A stretch of 64,000 nucleotides of DNA from Flavobacteriales bacterium (lineage in GTDB: Bacteria > Bacteroidota > Bacteroidia > Flavobacteriales_D > Sanyastnellaceae), in contig CANEVR010000004.1 in NCBI GenBank assembly GCA_947442505.1, forward strand, positions 1-64,000. The letters are read 5' to 3'. A program made the translations under genes and the position numbers. This document shows positions 48,565 through 60,624 of this stretch, one piece after another (within the stretch, counting starts at the first letter, position 1; each line of letters begins with the position of its first letter). A model generated the notes under the pieces. The model had not been told where the DNA came from and made no database searches. It saw nothing but the letters and a program-made list of their open reading frames with translations.

Positions 48565-49614
48565 ATGGGAAGGAACAGATTGCCTATTCGGCAAGACATA
48601 GCGGAAGTTTTGAAGGCATTTGGACAAATGTCTTCGGCTGAGGTGCACGAAAAATTAGCATCGCCAGTGGCCTATGCCACGGTCAAGCGGGCATTGCAGG
48701 ATATGGTTGTGCAAGAAGAGGTGCACAAGTATGGCAATGGTCGGGGTACTCTTTACGCCTTGAACCCTTCTTTCACATTGACAGGGCCTATCGATGTAGA
48801 AGCTTATTTTGATGAGGATGATTTTGACCGGGAAATCATCGACACTTTTAATTTTGATTTGTTACAAAACATCATTGATCAAGGTTCATTGTTTACCCAA
48901 AAGGAATTGCGCTTACTCGAGATACATTCTCAGCGGTTTAAGCAAAACATTCAACAATTGCATCAATCCGAGTTTAAAACGGAGTTTGAACGCTTGGCCA
49001 TTGATCTCAGTTGGAAGTCGTCCCAAATTGAGGGGAATACCTATTCTTTATTGGAGACGGAGTTGCTTTTGAAACAACAAATGACTGCATCCGGAAAAAC
49101 CAAAGATGAGGCAGTGATGTTGCTCAACCATAAGGATGCTTTGGATTTTTTATTGGATCATCCAAATTTCATTGAGCCTTTGAAGGTTCGTGTTTTGGAG
49201 GATGTACACAGTATGCTTATTAAAGAGTTGGGGGTGCAACGGAATATTAGGAACAGAAGGGTAGGGATATCAGGAACAATGTACAAGCCATTGGATAATG
49301 AGCACCAAATCCGCGAGGCTTTGCAGGCCATGTGTGATTTGATCAATCAACGGGACAATGTTTGGGAGAAAGCCTTGTTGGCCTTGTTGCTCATTTCGTA
49401 TATCCAGCCTTTTGACGATGGGAACAAGCGTACAGGTCGCATTGTGAGCAATGCCATTTTGATGTATCACCGGGATTGTCCGTTGTCTTTTAGAACCATC
49501 GATCCAATAGCATATAAGAAGGCTTTGTTGATATTCTATGAGCGCAACAACTTAAGTGCATTCAAGAAAATATTTATTGAGCAATATCAATTTGCGGTGG
49601 AGCATTATTTTTAA
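48565..49614 (+). CDS. Fic family protein with winged helix and altered active site
   Basis: The 349 aa protein has an N-terminal winged-helix domain (about 8-68), the class II inhibitory motif SSQIEG (residues 152-157) and a Fic core. The catalytic loop reads IQPFDDGNKRTGR (280-292). The catalytic His of HPFxDGNGRxxR is Gln281, and the second Gly is Lys288. Usual AMP transfer needs that His, so this one is probably inactive in AMPylation, acts differently, or works mainly as a regulator. Confidence 0.87.
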   Translation: MGRNRLPIRQDIAEVLKAFGQMSSAEVHEKLASPVAYATVKRALQDMVVQEEVHKYGNGRGTLYALNPSFTLTGPIDVEAYFDEDDFDREIIDTFNFDLLQNIIDQGSLFTQKELRLLEIHSQRFKQNIQQLHQSEFKTEFERLAIDLSWKSSQIEGNTYSLLETELLLKQQMTASGKTKDEAVMLLNHKDALDFLLDHPNFIEPLKVRVLEDVHSMLIKELGVQRNIRNRRVGISGTMYKPLDNEHQIREALQAMCDLINQRDNVWEKALLALLLISYIQPFDDGNKRTGRIVSNAILMYHRDCPLSFRTIDPIAYKKALLIFYERNNLSAFKKIFIEQYQFAVEHYF

Positions 49615-51419: not shown

Positions 51420-51451
51420 GTTGTGGAAAAATACTGGAGTTGTTATCTTCG
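51420..51451 (+). promoter_or_regulatory. Promoter of the Dlt-like cassette
   Basis: GTTG (51420-51423), a 20-bp spacer and TATCTTCG (51444-51451) each differ by one base from the TTTG/TAnnTTTG consensus. The start ATG is 9 bp further on. Confidence 0.45.
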
Positions 51452-51460
51452 CCACAGACC

Positions 51461-52930
51461 ATGACCATCCAGCAGCACATACATCAAATCGTTGATCGCC
51501 ATCCCGATGCCATTGCCCTCACGATGGGCAATGAAAGTTGGACGTATGCTGAGTTGTATCAAAAGTCCAAATGTGTTTCAGGCTTGATTCAGGAAAACGG
51601 TCTATCACAAACCAGCATTGGTTTGTTTACCGATAACCAGATGGAGATGTATGCCGGACTTTTGGGCATCTGGATGTCAGGCAATGCCTATGTTCCCATT
51701 AACCATAAGTTTCCCCAAGAGCGTTTGACCAAGATAGTCCGTGAGCGCGCTTTGACCCATGTGATTGGTATGGAGAGCAGTGGACCGCAAATGAAGGAAT
51801 TGGTTCCTGATTTGAGTCCATTGTTTTATGAAAATGGCGTTGCGATAAACGGGGATGTGCATGAATCGGCATTGGCCTATACCTTATTTACCTCAGGCAG
51901 CACTGGAGTTCCGAAAGGAATTCCCATTGATCATGCTCATTTGAAGGCATTGATGTTGGACATGTGGGAACGCTATCCGTTGGCTCCTGGCAATAAGGTT
52001 CTTCAGGCGTTTGAATTATCCTTTGATGTATCTATTGCCTGTGTGTTGTTGGCGTGGACGCAAGGGGCCGAATTGGTGGTTGCGGATTTGAATGGGATTA
52101 CTGCGATACAGGCATTCAAAGCCATACATGATCATCAGATAGACTTTGTAACCTTGCCACCATCAGCATTGTTCTATTTGCGAAAATTGAAAATGCTCAA
52201 GATGGAGCAGCCATGGGTACGAAAAACATTGTTCACGGGTGAGGCACTGCCTTATTCCGTGGTTCAAGAGTGGAAAACGTGTGCGCTGAATTCCACGATT
52301 GACAATGCCTACGGCCCGACTGAAGGTACTGTTTGGTCGTTGATTGATGCTTTGGATGAGACCATCGAGCAGCAAACGGTAAATGGTCTTTGTCCTATTG
52401 GACAACCTTTGAAGACCATTGCGATGCGGATTGTGGATGATTCGGGAAACGAAGTTGTGGATGGGGAGCGTGGTGAATTGTGGATTGGAGGTCCGCAGAT
52501 TTTTGGTGGTTATTTGGGACAACCTGAAAAAACAGCTGAGGTATTGTTTCAAGATGAACAAGGCATGCATTGGTACAAAACAGGAGACATTGTTTTTAAA
52601 AATGCCTGGGGAAAAATCATGTATGTGAACCGAAAAGACAATCAGGTTCAAGTAAATGGTTTCAGGGTTGAATTGGGCGAAGTAGAGTTTCATTTGAGGG
52701 TCTGTGTTGGCCATGATGCCGCAGTGGTATTGGCCCATCAAGAAAATGAAGTCACTGTATTATACGCCTTTGTGGAAGGACATATTGAAGAACAGGAAGT
52801 GTTGGGTGCATTGAGAATAAAAGTGCCCGGTTACATGTTGCCCCGAAAAGTGTTTGGGGTCGATGTATTTCCTGTCAATACCAGCGGTAAAATTGATAAG
52901 CAGACATTAAGAAAAAATTATTTGACATGA
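51461..52930 (+). CDS. Amino-acid adenylation enzyme, DltA-like
   Basis: The 489 aa ANL-superfamily enzyme has all core motifs: LFTSGSTGVPKG (142-153), NAYGPTE (282-288), YKTGD, DNQVQVNGFRVELGEVEFH and the C-terminal catalytic Lys477 in NTSGKIDK. It should activate a small amino acid as AMP ester and load it on the carrier protein encoded next. Its layout resembles DltA (D-alanine ligase), but the DltA CGEVLP pocket segment reads TGEALP here, so the substrate may not be D-alanine. It overlaps the carrier gene by 4 bp. Confidence 0.87.
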   Translation: MTIQQHIHQIVDRHPDAIALTMGNESWTYAELYQKSKCVSGLIQENGLSQTSIGLFTDNQMEMYAGLLGIWMSGNAYVPINHKFPQERLTKIVRERALTHVIGMESSGPQMKELVPDLSPLFYENGVAINGDVHESALAYTLFTSGSTGVPKGIPIDHAHLKALMLDMWERYPLAPGNKVLQAFELSFDVSIACVLLAWTQGAELVVADLNGITAIQAFKAIHDHQIDFVTLPPSALFYLRKLKMLKMEQPWVRKTLFTGEALPYSVVQEWKTCALNSTIDNAYGPTEGTVWSLIDALDETIEQQTVNGLCPIGQPLKTIAMRIVDDSGNEVVDGERGELWIGGPQIFGGYLGQPEKTAEVLFQDEQGMHWYKTGDIVFKNAWGKIMYVNRKDNQVQVNGFRVELGEVEFHLRVCVGHDAAVVLAHQENEVTVLYAFVEGHIEEQEVLGALRIKVPGYMLPRKVFGVDVFPVNTSGKIDKQTLRKNYLT

Positions 52931-53172
52931 GCAATGAAGAATTGACGGCACGCGTAGATGGTGTGTTTAGAAAGGTATTTAAGAACGAAGGCATTTCCGT
53001 TCACCGCGAAACCACAGCCAAGGACATCGCAGGTTGGGACTCCATCACGCATTTGGACATCATCTCAGGAATGGAAGAAGAGTTTGGAGTGGAGATTACC
53101 GGTTTTGAGGTGATGAACATGAATGATGTCGGTGATTTGTATGATCTTTTAACGCAAAAGTTAGAAGCATAG
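52927..53172 (+). CDS. Acyl/aminoacyl carrier protein, DltC-like
   Basis: The 81 aa four-helix carrier has the phosphopantetheine site GWDSI with Ser39. Acidic helices (LDIISGMEEEFGVEITGFEV) are typical of carriers. It overlaps the adenylation gene by 4 bp and precedes the MBOAT gene by 1 bp, so its partners are clear. A separate 4'-phosphopantetheinyl transferase must load it; none is in the window. Confidence 0.92.
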   Translation: MSNEELTARVDGVFRKVFKNEGISVHRETTAKDIAGWDSITHLDIISGMEEEFGVEITGFEVMNMNDVGDLYDLLTQKLEA

Positions 53173-53173
53173 G

Positions 53174-54601
53174 GTGGTATTTCAATCATGGTCATACGCA
53201 GGGTTCATGCTCATCACCATTTTGGTGGTGCGTTTCACCGCTGCGCAATGGCGATGGATGCCGCTGTTGTTGGCCAGTTTTTTCTTTTATTCTTTGACAG
53301 GAATTGAGGCCTTTGTTCTGTTGTTGGGTTCCATTTTATTTACGTATTACAACGCGCAGAAAATAGCTGAGAGCGTCAACATGACCAAACGATACCGTTG
53401 GTTGTTGGTGTCGGTTTGCGGACAAATATTAATTCTCGGTGTATTCAAATACTTGGGTTTTTTCAATGGATTGATGCAGGGTGTGAATGCATTGTTGCAC
53501 CGCGGACCATGGAATGATTGGGAATTGTTGATTTTGCCTTTGGGAATTTCCTTTTACACTTTTCAAAGCATGGGTTATGTTTTTGATGTTTACTACAAAA
53601 TCAGAAAACCTGAAATGCACTTGGGAAAGTACGCCTTGTTTGTTTCTTTCTTTCCACAGATACAATCGGGACCGATTGGACGATCCAAAGAGATGATGCC
53701 CCAGTGGTCAAACATTGCAACGCCGCATTTTGAGGATTACCGATGGGCCATTCAACTGTTTGTTTGGGGATTGTTGAAGAAGTTTGTCGTCGCCGATCGC
53801 TTGGGAAATTACGTTGATGAAGTATACGCAGGTGCGGGTTCCATGGGTACTTGGGTTTGGTTGTTCGCCTTGGCATTGTATACCGTTCAATTGTATGCGG
53901 ATTTTTCAGCCTACTCAGACATGGCCATAGCATCAGCCAAAATGTTGGGTATTCGGTTGCCAGAGAATTTTGACTTTCCATACAAAGCGGCCAACATCAC
54001 CGACTTTTGGAGGAGATGGCATCTGTCGCTATCCGGTTGGTTGCGTGATTACATTTATACGCCATTGTTGTTCAGTAAAAAGAAGTGGAAGAAATGGGCT
54101 GTTGTCTATGCCATAGGCATCACCTTTGTCATCTGTGGTATTTGGCATGGTGCCAACATGACTTTTGTGTGGTTCGGAGTGGTTCAGGCCGCGATTTTGA
54201 TTTTTGAATTGTTTACCAAAGAATGGAGAGCGAGACAGTCTGAACGTTTTGGAAAGGTGTATCATGGATTATCTGTATTGGTCACCTTTTGGGTGATCTC
54301 CTTTTGCTTTATCCTTTTCAGAGCTGAGGACATGCAGCAAGTGATGGTTGTGTTGAAAGACTTGATGCATACCGATTTCGTAAGTTTTTCCAATTATATC
54401 GCTGAAAAGAATGCTTCCCGTATATTGGGTGTGTTGGCTTTGGTTGTTCTGTTCTTGGGCTTGAATGAAAGATGGGATTTGCGTTTGCGACAAACGAAAT
54501 GGAACAGTCGCCAGAGCATATGGGCTGTGTCAGGGATGTTGGTATTGCTTGTCATCATGGGGGTTTTTGGTAAAAATGACTTTATCTATTTTCAATTTTG
54601 A
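53174..54601 (+). CDS. MBOAT family acyltransferase, DltB-like
   Basis: The 475 aa membrane protein has about 10-12 hydrophobic segments and the MBOAT signatures FFPQIQSGPIGRSKEMMPQW and DFWRRWHLSLSGWLRDYIYTPL. The conserved His is in CGIWHGANMTFVWFG (about residue 325). It should pass the carrier-bound group across the inner membrane to an extracytoplasmic acceptor. Start is GTG, 1 bp after the carrier stop. Related MBOATs acetylate alginate, but here the carrier context points to an aminoacyl donor. Confidence 0.92.
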   Translation: MVFQSWSYAGFMLITILVVRFTAAQWRWMPLLLASFFFYSLTGIEAFVLLLGSILFTYYNAQKIAESVNMTKRYRWLLVSVCGQILILGVFKYLGFFNGLMQGVNALLHRGPWNDWELLILPLGISFYTFQSMGYVFDVYYKIRKPEMHLGKYALFVSFFPQIQSGPIGRSKEMMPQWSNIATPHFEDYRWAIQLFVWGLLKKFVVADRLGNYVDEVYAGAGSMGTWVWLFALALYTVQLYADFSAYSDMAIASAKMLGIRLPENFDFPYKAANITDFWRRWHLSLSGWLRDYIYTPLLFSKKKWKKWAVVYAIGITFVICGIWHGANMTFVWFGVVQAAILIFELFTKEWRARQSERFGKVYHGLSVLVTFWVISFCFILFRAEDMQQVMVVLKDLMHTDFVSFSNYIAEKNASRILGVLALVVLFLGLNERWDLRLRQTKWNSRQSIWAVSGMLVLLVIMGVFGKNDFIYFQF

Positions 54602-55551
54602 TGAAGAAGTTGAAGTGGGGCATAGGGGTGTTTTTTATGACAACAGGGTTGTACCTTACGCTCTATTTTGCGCTGTGTAAAGTCGAGTACAGAGAACTGC
54701 CTTTGGTCTATTTGTTCTCGGATTACTTGGGTCCCAATGGTGGTTTTACTTACAACAAAAGTATAGAATGGGATGAGGCGCAAAAGAGCGCAACGCAATG
54801 GGATGTCATTGTATTGGGTGCTTCTAGAGCGGAACGGTCATATGATCCTGCATTTTTTAAATCAAAGGGAATTCAACTCTTCAATTGGGGAACATCAGCG
54901 CAAAGTCTTCAGAATTCTTACTTATTGTTGAAACACATTTTAGAAGAGGCACAACCCAAGGCGGTTTGGTTGGACATTGTTCCAGCGTCTTTCAAACCAG
55001 AAGCCTTAGAGTCTACAGCTGATTTGATACAGAATGTTACCAGTAACCAGTTGGCTTACAATTTTGCTTGGTCTTCATCCGATATTCGTTCGGTCAATCT
55101 TTTGTCCAAACGTTTTTTTTGTGAGAATGTGAAGTGGGAAAAAAAGGGTCGGTCTCAGTACCATAGCCAAGGCTTTGTTTCTGTTTCTGATTCTATGGGA
55201 GAAAAGCTTTACAATGAATGTTTGCGGAACGTTAAGCATCAGCGTGCTTATGTCCAGCCTTCTGTTGAAGCAAGGTTAGCGCTTAAAGAGATCATTGAAC
55301 TTTGCCGAGTCAAAGGAGTATCATTGACCTGTATCATTTCTCCGACAACACCTCTGTACAATATGCAGGACCATGCATGGATGATGGCGTATTTGAATGA
55401 ATTGAAAAAGGAGCATACTTTCAACATTGTGGATTATGCAGGTGATGGTCAATTTCAAATTCCCAATGATTTTTATGATGAAAAACATCTGAATCACAGC
55501 GGAGCCTTGAAATTTGATTCGTTGTTTTTAAGTACAATGAAGTTGCAATAA
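54601..55551 (+). CDS. SGNH-like membrane-anchored protein, DltD-like
   Basis: The 316 aa product has one N-terminal membrane helix (about residues 7-26) and a periplasmic SGNH-like domain. The candidate catalytic Ser75 is in VLGASRAERS. Asp293 and His296 are in DEKHLNHSG, matching the SGNH D-x-x-H block. It would transfer or deliver the aminoacyl group on the outer side, as DltD or AlgJ/AlgX-type proteins do. Its ATG shares one base with the MBOAT stop, so it is the fourth coupled gene. Confidence 0.78.
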   Translation: MKKLKWGIGVFFMTTGLYLTLYFALCKVEYRELPLVYLFSDYLGPNGGFTYNKSIEWDEAQKSATQWDVIVLGASRAERSYDPAFFKSKGIQLFNWGTSAQSLQNSYLLLKHILEEAQPKAVWLDIVPASFKPEALESTADLIQNVTSNQLAYNFAWSSSDIRSVNLLSKRFFCENVKWEKKGRSQYHSQGFVSVSDSMGEKLYNECLRNVKHQRAYVQPSVEARLALKEIIELCRVKGVSLTCIISPTTPLYNMQDHAWMMAYLNELKKEHTFNIVDYAGDGQFQIPNDFYDEKHLNHSGALKFDSLFLSTMKLQ

Positions 55552-55587
55552 ATCAAGAGGTTTCAACCAAAAAATATTTAATTCAAT

Positions 55588-55698
55588 CTATGGGGTTTCA
55601 ATCTTTATCTTGCAGCCCATTAGCAACACCACTTCGAAATGCGTTCCTTCACCTACTTGGGAGGTAAATACGATACTACCGTTGTGCAGTTTGGCGAA
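55588..55698 (-). pseudogene. Remnant of a sensor histidine kinase C-terminus
   Basis: On the minus strand the peptide FAKLHNGSIVFTSQVGEGTHFEVVL ends at TAG 55588-55590. It matches the end of a HATPase_c domain (L-H-x-G-x-I ... S-x-x-G-x-G-T-x-F). A TAA sits directly upstream, and no G-box or dimerisation domain follows. The rest of 55552-55793 shows nothing else. Confidence 0.6.
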
Positions 55699-55798
55699 TT
55701 ATGCGGAAATGAAGAACTTATTGTTCTGAGTTTGTTCTAGCCGTTTTTAATTTGTTTCGTTCTTGATTTTGCTATTTAATTTCAATTCAATATTTGAC

Positions 55799-59414: not shown

Positions 59415-60008
59415 CTACTCTTCTTCTTTCCATCTTAAGCTCCAAGGCTCAACAGAATTCCCTGATGCTTGACACTTTTCACAATGCCACTTGTTGTTGA
59501 AAGTATCCATCCAAAATCCATGATCCCACATTGTTGGACCTAGTGGACAGTTGACATACCAGCGATAATATTCTTTGCTGCTGGGGTTGCTGTTAAGGCT
59601 GTATTTAAAAATTTGTTGAAGCAAATTTCCTGGATTCATTCTATTGAATTTCATAATTTCATAAGCCTCTTCTTTGCCTGCTTCATAACGGAGTTGAAAA
59701 GCGTAGGCAGAAATTACATTGCACCAAATAAGTCTGTCCGAACTATTATCCAATCCCAATTGGTAAGCATGCTTCAGCACGAAGTTGTGTTTATAGGTAG
59801 CATGATCAATTTCGTATTCATCGTTGGAATCAATTAAAGTGGGTTCTTTGTCAAAATGGGGCTTGCCGTTGATATAAACGTAATGTTTGTAAATCTCTCG
59901 GGTTCCGTCCTCAAACTTGGCCATCACCAGATGAAAGATATAATCACTACCCAGCATGGATCCCGCCATAATCAAAAATGGAAATTGCGATTGAATGTTT
60001 TTACTCAT
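59415..60008 (-). CDS. Unknown protein with C-terminal zinc-ribbon-like motif (paralogue 2)
   Basis: The 197 aa product is a paralogue of the next gene upstream. Both share IYKH-V-ING/LDG-PH-DEKP, a KHNFVL-hAY helix with a following IW, a PGNLLQ/PGRLVQ segment and a Cys-rich end. Here that end is NCPLGPTMWDHGFW, then WHCEKCQ, then EPW. Three Cys plus His could bind zinc. There is no signal peptide and no catalytic motif I recognise. It follows its paralogue by 19 bp. Confidence 0.65.
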   Translation of the reverse strand: MSKNIQSQFPFLIMAGSMLGSDYIFHLVMAKFEDGTREIYKHYVYINGKPHFDKEPTLIDSNDEYEIDHATYKHNFVLKHAYQLGLDNSSDRLIWCNVISAYAFQLRYEAGKEEAYEIMKFNRMNPGNLLQQIFKYSLNSNPSSKEYYRWYVNCPLGPTMWDHGFWMDTFNNKWHCEKCQASGNSVEPWSLRWKEEE

Positions 60009-60027
60009 TTGTTTTTTGTTTGCGTGA

Positions 60028-60624
60028 TTATTTATTGTTGACCTTTATTCGATTGTTGTCTATCCATGGCTGGATACTATGGCTGTGTACCGAGCATTTG
60101 GGACAATGCCACTCATTGGTCACAGCATTGATCCATGATCCATGATTGAACTTGCTGCTCTTGACGGGTAGTGGGCATTGGACCCACCATTTGTTCAGGT
60201 CGTATTGATGGGCTGTGACTTGAACTTGGTGATCCAATAATTCCTGAACCAATCTTCCAGGAAACATTTCATTGAAAGTCTGAACCACATGTTTTTCAAA
60301 CATTCTTTTTTCAACGAGATCCAAGAATTCCTCACGCGTCACAACACTGCTCCAAATGAAATCTTCGCTACCTCCTCGGTGATAAGCGTAATCCAAAACA
60401 AAGTTTCTTTTCAATTCAAAATCACTCAATTGTAAGTCGGTGAACGTTTCTTCCAAAATCGGCTTTTCGTCCACATGGGGTGATCCATCCAAAATGACGG
60501 TGTGTTTGTAAATGCTTCGTTCGTTTTCCTCTTTGACCAACACAAAATGCTCAGTAAAATCGACTACCTGTTGGAACCCTTCGTGAATGAGAAAGGGGGG
60601 GAGGTAAATAATGTTGTTTTTCAT
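60028..60624 (-). CDS. Unknown protein with C-terminal zinc-ribbon-like motif (paralogue 1)
   Basis: The 198 aa product has the same layout as its neighbour: SIYKHTVILDGSPHVDEKP (about residues 37-55), FELKRNFVLDYAYHRGG, MFPGRLVQELL and QCPLPVKSSKFNHGSW ... WHCPKCSVHSHSIQPW near the end. The tandem pair arose by duplication and has diverged widely (roughly a third identical by eye). It is probably cytoplasmic. I cannot assign a function. Confidence 0.65.
   Translation of the reverse strand: MKNNIIYLPPFLIHEGFQQVVDFTEHFVLVKEENERSIYKHTVILDGSPHVDEKPILEETFTDLQLSDFELKRNFVLDYAYHRGGSEDFIWSSVVTREEFLDLVEKRMFEKHVVQTFNEMFPGRLVQELLDHQVQVTAHQYDLNKWWVQCPLPVKSSKFNHGSWINAVTNEWHCPKCSVHSHSIQPWIDNNRIKVNNK

Follow-up and report, generated by a model that had tools for sequence, protein, structure and literature searches.

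A four-gene cassette in a Bacteroidota genome as a candidate carrier-protein-fed MBOAT-SGNH system

The cassette and its four predicted products

The window, a stretch of 64,000 nt from a Flavobacteriales bacterium, belongs to a genome of 2.64 Mb (106 contigs, 96.7% complete). It contains a cassette of four plus-strand genes at positions 51461–55551, and the coordinates given in a first-pass annotation were correct. The genes encode an adenylation (A) enzyme, a carrier protein (ACP), an MBOAT and an SGNH-type protein. The spacing between them is −4 nt (A/ACP), +1 nt (ACP/MBOAT) and −1 nt (MBOAT/SGNH, a 1-nt overlap reading TGATG). The annotation had spoken of four overlapping genes: the tight packing was confirmed, but the genes abut or overlap by just 1–4 nt.

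A promoter-like string, TTG-N20-TATCTTCG, was read at 51421–51451 (+) and ends 9 nt short of the A-gene start codon. It is promoter-like by sequence only, on comparison with the Bacteroidota promoter consensus. With one or two changes, the string is also found upstream of the cassette in the congeners G003 and G002. A transcript starting from it (51421–51461) would be nearly leaderless.

The A gene (ATG at 51461, stop at 52930, +) encodes 489 aa with matches to Pfam AMP-binding (7.7e-62) and TIGR01733 (299 bits). The score against the DltA equivalog TIGR01734 was 250.5 bits, under the cut-off of 559.85, and the best PDB sequence matches of the A domain were NRPS. The substrate pocket was read from an alignment with GrsA (1amu) and DltA (3e7w); both sequences were checked against the PDB. 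Asp189 (52025–52027, +) corresponds to GrsA D235 and DltA D197, the contact of the alpha-amino group. D235 and K517 (GrsA numbering) hold the amino and the carboxyl group of the amino acid, respectively (PMC11253843), and both were kept in every cassette A domain. Features of aryl- or fatty-acid enzymes were absent. Because the amino-acid-binding Asp and Lys are kept, the enzyme is predicted to be a free-standing amino-acid:carrier-protein ligase.

The ten-residue pocket code is DVATLTAVWK, compared with DLMTMCTVAK in Bacillus subtilis DltA. The same code was found in G002, G003 and locus L051, and codes one residue off were found in G006, G001 and G014. A large sister set of A domains has the code DLMLLCVIFK, and further codes occur in others. 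In DltA of Bacillus cereus, L198 and C269 contact the D-methyl group, and C269 acts in D-Ala selection (PMC11253843). The window has V236 and T301 at these positions. The latter is Thr259 in the motif TGEALP (residues 259–264; 52235–52252, +), aligned with GrsA 301 and DltA C269. From TGEALP in place of CGEVLP, the first-pass annotation had concluded that the amino acid may differ from D-alanine, and the pocket does differ at that Cys. Moreover, Trp331 may be equivalent to the Trp that occludes the pocket of the glycine enzyme DhbF (PMC11253843). With the D-methyl contacts exchanged for Val and Thr, and with a bulky Trp at 331, the best guess for the substrate is glycine or a similarly small amino acid, at modest confidence. 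Code-to-substrate prediction is weak for a code not seen before, such as DVATLTAVWK. In an A-domain tree (FastTree, midpoint-rooted; some deep nodes weak), the cassette enzymes branched apart from DltA.

The ACP gene (52927–53172, +) encodes 81 aa (Pfam PP-binding 3e-4). Its phosphopantetheine serine, Ser39 in GWDSITH, was invariant in 10 cassette ACPs.

The MBOAT gene (GTG at 53174 to 54601, +) encodes 475 aa (Pfam MBOAT 3.1e-19). Residues 1–396 of its AlphaFold model aligned with almost all of DltB (6bug/8jem; Z 28.2, 365 aligned residues, 3.1 A), the closest solved MBOAT structure. The score against the DltB equivalog TIGR04091 was 189.6 bits, under the cut-off of 375. His325 in GIWHGA (54146–54148, +) is by homology the catalytic His, and W324-H325-G326 was invariant in 20 MBOATs. 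The conserved His is required in PatA (PMC12148441).

Residues 397–475 form an extension beyond the DltB core with predicted helices at 414–440 and 446–463; the C-terminal tail was modelled at low confidence (pLDDT below 50). The protein ends in FIYFQF (54581–54598, +), which has the form of the FxYxxF acyl-shuttle motif described in PMC12148441, with Tyr472 as its tyrosine. Tyr472 and Phe475 were invariant in 20 aligned MBOATs. PatA-type MBOATs carry FxYxxF on two additional helices which DltB does not have; the Tyr gets acylated, and the SGNH partner then receives the acyl group from it (PMC12148441). The cassette MBOAT thus has both the catalytic His and the C-terminal motif on a post-DltB-core extension that mark bacterial MBOAT-SGNH systems. 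FIYFQF by itself is not specific to the cassette because two further MBOATs of the genome end in the same way, with no A/ACP pair detected nearby.

The fourth gene (ATG at 54601 to 55551, +) encodes 316 aa, predicted from a fold model and Foldseek to be a membrane-anchored SGNH acyltransferase. It had no Pfam match; PF04914 (DltD family) had no match in this gene or in the whole genome. A sequence search of the PDB gave no match either, and fold comparison was used instead. The model (pLDDT 70, pTM 0.71) shows an N-terminal membrane helix (2–27) and an SGNH domain. The top Foldseek match was DltD (7dxm, E 1.2e-5), and Z scores against SGNH folds were 14–16, including 14.2 for PatB (8tlb); such a fold match cannot separate DltD, PatB and esterases. 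The putative catalytic residues are Ser75, Asp293 and His296, of which Ser75 and His296 were invariant in 15 sequences. A membrane-anchored partner with Ser and Asp/His, as in other MBOAT-SGNH systems, is therefore present. Conservation of the SGNH protein is poor, and the Ser/His signature is missing from some distant cassettes, G179 among them.

Three further features of the window were recorded. A remnant on the minus strand (55565–55700), reading FAKLHNGSIVFTSQVGEGTHFEVVLLMGCKIKIETP, resembles by eye the C-terminal end of a sensor histidine kinase of which no intact gene is present; at this spot, a different gene follows the cassette in G003 and G006. Two tandem, paralogous-looking proteins of 197 and 198 aa (59415–60624, −) have C-terminal Cys pairs and no Pfam match, and the pair also lies side by side in G003 (L024). 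The gene at 48565–49614 (+) encodes a Fic protein whose N-terminal winged helix resembles that of penicillinase repressors.

Conservation and genomic setting

The cassette was present in six of the seven genomes searched of the window's genus. The full A-ACP-MBOAT-SGNH order was found in the congeners G001, G003 and G006. In G002, the cassette is split between two contigs, of which one has A, ACP and a partial MBOAT and the other MBOAT-SGNH; in G005, A-ACP-MBOAT lies on a truncated contig. A window-type cassette was not found in G004, whose genome is 64% complete. An exodeoxyribonuclease-type gene adjoins the cassette in G003 and G006, as in the window; in G001, sulfate-permease and DabA/DabB-like genes sit between the two.

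Compared with G003 (G000/G003 pair), dN/dS was 0.10 for A, 0.04 for ACP and 0.13 for MBOAT, with dS high and near saturation; for the SGNH gene, substitutions were saturated. By these ratios, the cassette is under purifying selection.

In two congeners, a protein of ~530–547 aa is encoded directly after the SGNH gene (L024:7719–9362 and L025:5184–6776), and that of L024 has a T9SS C-terminal sorting domain (PF18962). The T9SS-sorted protein of G003, with a similar one in G006, was rejected as a core component as it is absent from the window.

At the order level, 10 of 199 sampled genomes had an A-domain match (E≤1e-60), each followed by ACP and MBOAT genes. The cassette-ACP profile matched 74 of 395 genomes of the class (E≤1e-10), not all beside an MBOAT. 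Among 71 named A loci of the genome collection, an ACP came next in 56 (a count that allows an N-modifying gene in between), followed by an MBOAT in 20. The order A-(N-modifier)-ACP-MBOAT was found outside the genus in G014, G019, G184, G166, G012 and G179. Six loci of the phylum scan (L038–L042 and L044) were excluded as ordinary NRPS A domains.

The gene-order survey across Bacteroidota proposed in the annotation thus recovered A-ACP-MBOAT(-SGNH) in relatives and in distant lineages. Because of this recurrence, the four-gene cassette is real and not a chance arrangement. Free-standing A and ACP genes also form a wider family, which is widespread across the Bacteroidota.

Other arrangements of A and ACP genes were also seen. 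In L101 (1602–8525) and L060, which come from MAGs of Bacteroidetes and Ignavibacteriaceae, an array of A enzymes precedes two to four GNAT-family genes and a single ACP. A conserved Aquimarina/Flavobacteriaceae sugar cluster (L067, L069, L070, L082 and similar) has A (code DFVTSGYVYK) and ACP, with no MBOAT directly after; this A enzyme probably has a different amino acid and use.

The slot between the A and ACP genes varies. A GNAT-like gene occupies it in G014, G019, G184, G166 and L051, A and GNAT are fused in G012, and a formyltransferase is found there in L055 and L065. In G001, of the window's genus, a GNAT lies 4.7 kb downstream and is closest to the GNATs of L051 and G014. Two unrelated amine-modifying enzymes in one slot are consistent with an aminoacyl-S-ACP whose free alpha-amine would be open to N-capping. 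At E≤0.01, the window's genome (96.7% complete assembly) gave no match to the GNAT of G014 or to that of G001. In the window's system, the amine is more likely left free.

The surroundings of the cassette bear on the acceptor. The window's genome encodes LpxC and polysaccharide-export (Wza-type) proteins; therefore, LPS and exported glycans should be available. No glycan cluster was recognised beside the cassette in the window's genus, where the neighbours are exonuclease, thioesterase and housekeeping genes. In G014, the cassette is set among glycosyltransferases, NeuB, a cytidylyltransferase (CMP-sugar synthetase), an HAD phosphatase, a sulfotransferase and a Wzy_C ligase/polymerase. In Aquimarina spongiae (L056), it is accompanied by UDP-sugar dehydrogenase, Wzx, pyruvyl transferase, GT4 and EpsG; the layout in Flaviramulus (L064) is alike by eye. 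The G012 cassette lies near Wzz/Wzc, and that of L051 adjoins DUF4910 and a TIGR04396-like surface-carbohydrate protein.

A match of PF04464 (glycerophosphotransferase) next to L051, which would hint at a teichoic-like polymer, was rejected because it was under the cut-off. The neighbour protein fits TIGR04396 better, yet it is also below the cut-off of that model.

In relatives, the cassette is embedded in polysaccharide clusters with Wzx, glycosyltransferases, EpsG or NeuB. By analogy, the likely acceptor is a surface glycan, be it a capsule, an O-antigen-like polymer or another exported glycan. The expectation of a non-teichoic acceptor is supported by these clusters and by the LpxC and Wza-type genes. 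For lipid A, also among the acceptors first proposed, no positive evidence was obtained.

A predicted aminoacyl relay and its alternatives

We propose, with a probability of about 0.68, that the cassette is a carrier-protein-fed MBOAT/SGNH relay which esterifies a surface polysaccharide with a small amino acid. The A enzyme would adenylate the amino acid and load it on the ACP as a thioester. At the cytoplasmic face, the MBOAT would take the aminoacyl group from the ACP and pass it via His325 to its own Tyr472 in FIYFQF on the periplasmic side. The acyl-Tyr peptide would then hand the group to Ser75 of the membrane-anchored SGNH protein, which would attach it to a hydroxyl group on the exported glycan. 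If the amine remains free, an effect on surface charge is likely.

The transferred group may instead be an N-acetyl- or N-formyl-aminoacyl residue, capped by an enzyme encoded elsewhere in the window's genome. The GNAT between A and ACP in G014 and L051, which have the same or nearly the same pocket code, speaks for this reading, as do the related GNAT kept by G001, the fusion in G012 and the formyltransferases of L055 and L065. We consider it rather unlikely, as the window's genome has no homologue of the G014/G001 GNAT at the threshold given above, the GNAT is missing from most of the genus, and the role of the GNATs in capping is putative. True D-alanylation by a diverged Dlt system would explain the same four activities, DltB as the closest solved MBOAT and the presence of DltA and DltB among the top-scoring curated models. 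Moreover, the sister-clade code DLMLLCVIFK retains L236, M239 and C301 of DltA. However, the window's code has V236, A239, T301 and W331, and thus both D-methyl contacts (L198 and C269; PMC11253843) are changed. The DltA and DltB cut-offs were missed, PF04914 was not found, the operon has no DltX gene, and the cassette enzymes are separate from DltA in the A-domain tree. D-Ala as the transferred group is therefore judged unlikely.

It is very unlikely that two unrelated modules lie side by side, with A-ACP modifying a cytosolic sugar or metabolite and MBOAT-SGNH O-acetylating a polymer from acetyl-CoA in the PatA-PatB style. PatA-type MBOATs do use acyl-CoA (PMC12148441), A-ACP pairs with no MBOAT directly after are common in Aquimarina sugar clusters, and the genome has the two other FIYFQF-ending MBOATs with no A/ACP pair detected nearby. 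Yet in many divergent lineages, the ACP gene lies next to the MBOAT gene and almost overlaps it. L064 has a second ACP-MBOAT-SGNH triplet with no A gene of its own directly upstream; therefore, ACP and MBOAT travel together. Least probable is a natural-product or aryl/fatty-acid pathway, for which the general use of A domains in NRPS and the NRPS matches in the PDB could be cited. No condensation or PKS modules lie beside the cassette, D235/K517 are kept, the partners are MBOAT and SGNH proteins, and the context in relatives is polysaccharide synthesis. A fatty or aryl substrate, or homologous cassettes inside a known natural-product pathway, had been named in the annotation as findings that would speak against its Dlt-like reading; neither was encountered.

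The carrier-fed relay can be extended, tentatively and at somewhat less than even odds, to a modular family across Bacteroidota. Free-standing A enzymes with several pocket codes, and therefore several amino acids, would together with an ACP feed a self-shuttling MBOAT. The exchangeable slot (none, GNAT, formyltransferase or A-GNAT fusion) would set whether the amine is free, acetylated or formylated.

Comparison with known systems

In Gram-positives, Vibrio and Bordetella, aminoacylation of surface polymers alters charge as well as the sensitivity to antimicrobial peptides. The same logic may now be seen in Bacteroidota, a phylum dominant in gut and marine habitats, with the carrier-fed donor side of Dlt and the self-shuttling MBOAT of Pat. 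Searches of the open-access literature gave nothing relevant on a described Dlt-like system in Bacteroidota, and this absence is accordingly weak. The cassette is short and conserved, and cultured relatives (Aquimarina, Flaviramulus, Phocaeicola sartorii and Butyricimonas) make the question testable.

Like Dlt, the cassette has an A ligase, a carrier protein, a DltB-fold MBOAT, an SGNH protein, the FxYxxF tyrosine shuttle and, as predicted here, a carrier thioester as donor. The gene order differs: it is A, ACP, MBOAT, SGNH in the cassette, whereas dltA-B-C-D runs A, MBOAT, carrier, SGNH. In Dlt, FxYxxF is on the separate microprotein DltX; in the cassette, as in PatA, the motif is part of the MBOAT itself. 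No separate DltX-like gene was found in the cassette operon, whose 1–4-nt junctions leave no room for one. Moreover, the cassette is below the DltA and DltB cut-offs, is without PF04914, has Thr for C301, and its A domains do not form a DltA clade. The host is Gram-negative with LPS genes, unlike that of the teichoic-acid Dlt system. Of the proposed identity in activities and coupling with dltABCD, the four Dlt-type activities stand; the A, MBOAT and SGNH proteins score too low for the curated Dlt models or lie outside them, the order differs, and a DltX-like gene is missing.

Two Gram-negative parallels were drawn in the annotation. AlmE-AlmF-AlmG shares an A enzyme and a small carrier protein, and it glycylates lipid A of Vibrio, a Gram-negative surface molecule. 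The parallel is not structural: the last transferase of Alm is the LPLAT-type AlmG, with no MBOAT/SGNH (PMC3783018), whereas that of the cassette is an MBOAT. The dra locus of Bordetella adds D-Ala to a Gram-negative outer-membrane component (PMC4448142) and is likened here by description only; the title of Taneja et al. 2013 terms its acceptor protease-susceptible.

With PatA/PatB, the cassette shares the MBOAT extension ending in FxYxxF, the conserved His and a separate SGNH partner. PatA-type MBOATs use acyl-CoA, acetyl-CoA in the case of PatA, and the lack of a carrier protein in other MBOAT/SGNH pathways has been explained by acyl-CoA donors (PMC12148441). Unlike these, the cassette has a dedicated ACP and A enzyme, adjacent to the MBOAT gene in the window and in relatives. 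It therefore appears to be an exception to the no-carrier rule, and it offers a test of the rule of PMC12148441 that ties carrier absence to CoA donors. Judged from its sequences, the cassette would join the carrier-protein donor of Dlt to the MBOAT-fused shuttle of Pat. It would work like Dlt, yet lies outside the Dlt families tested, and is best called a carrier-fed MBOAT-SGNH system.
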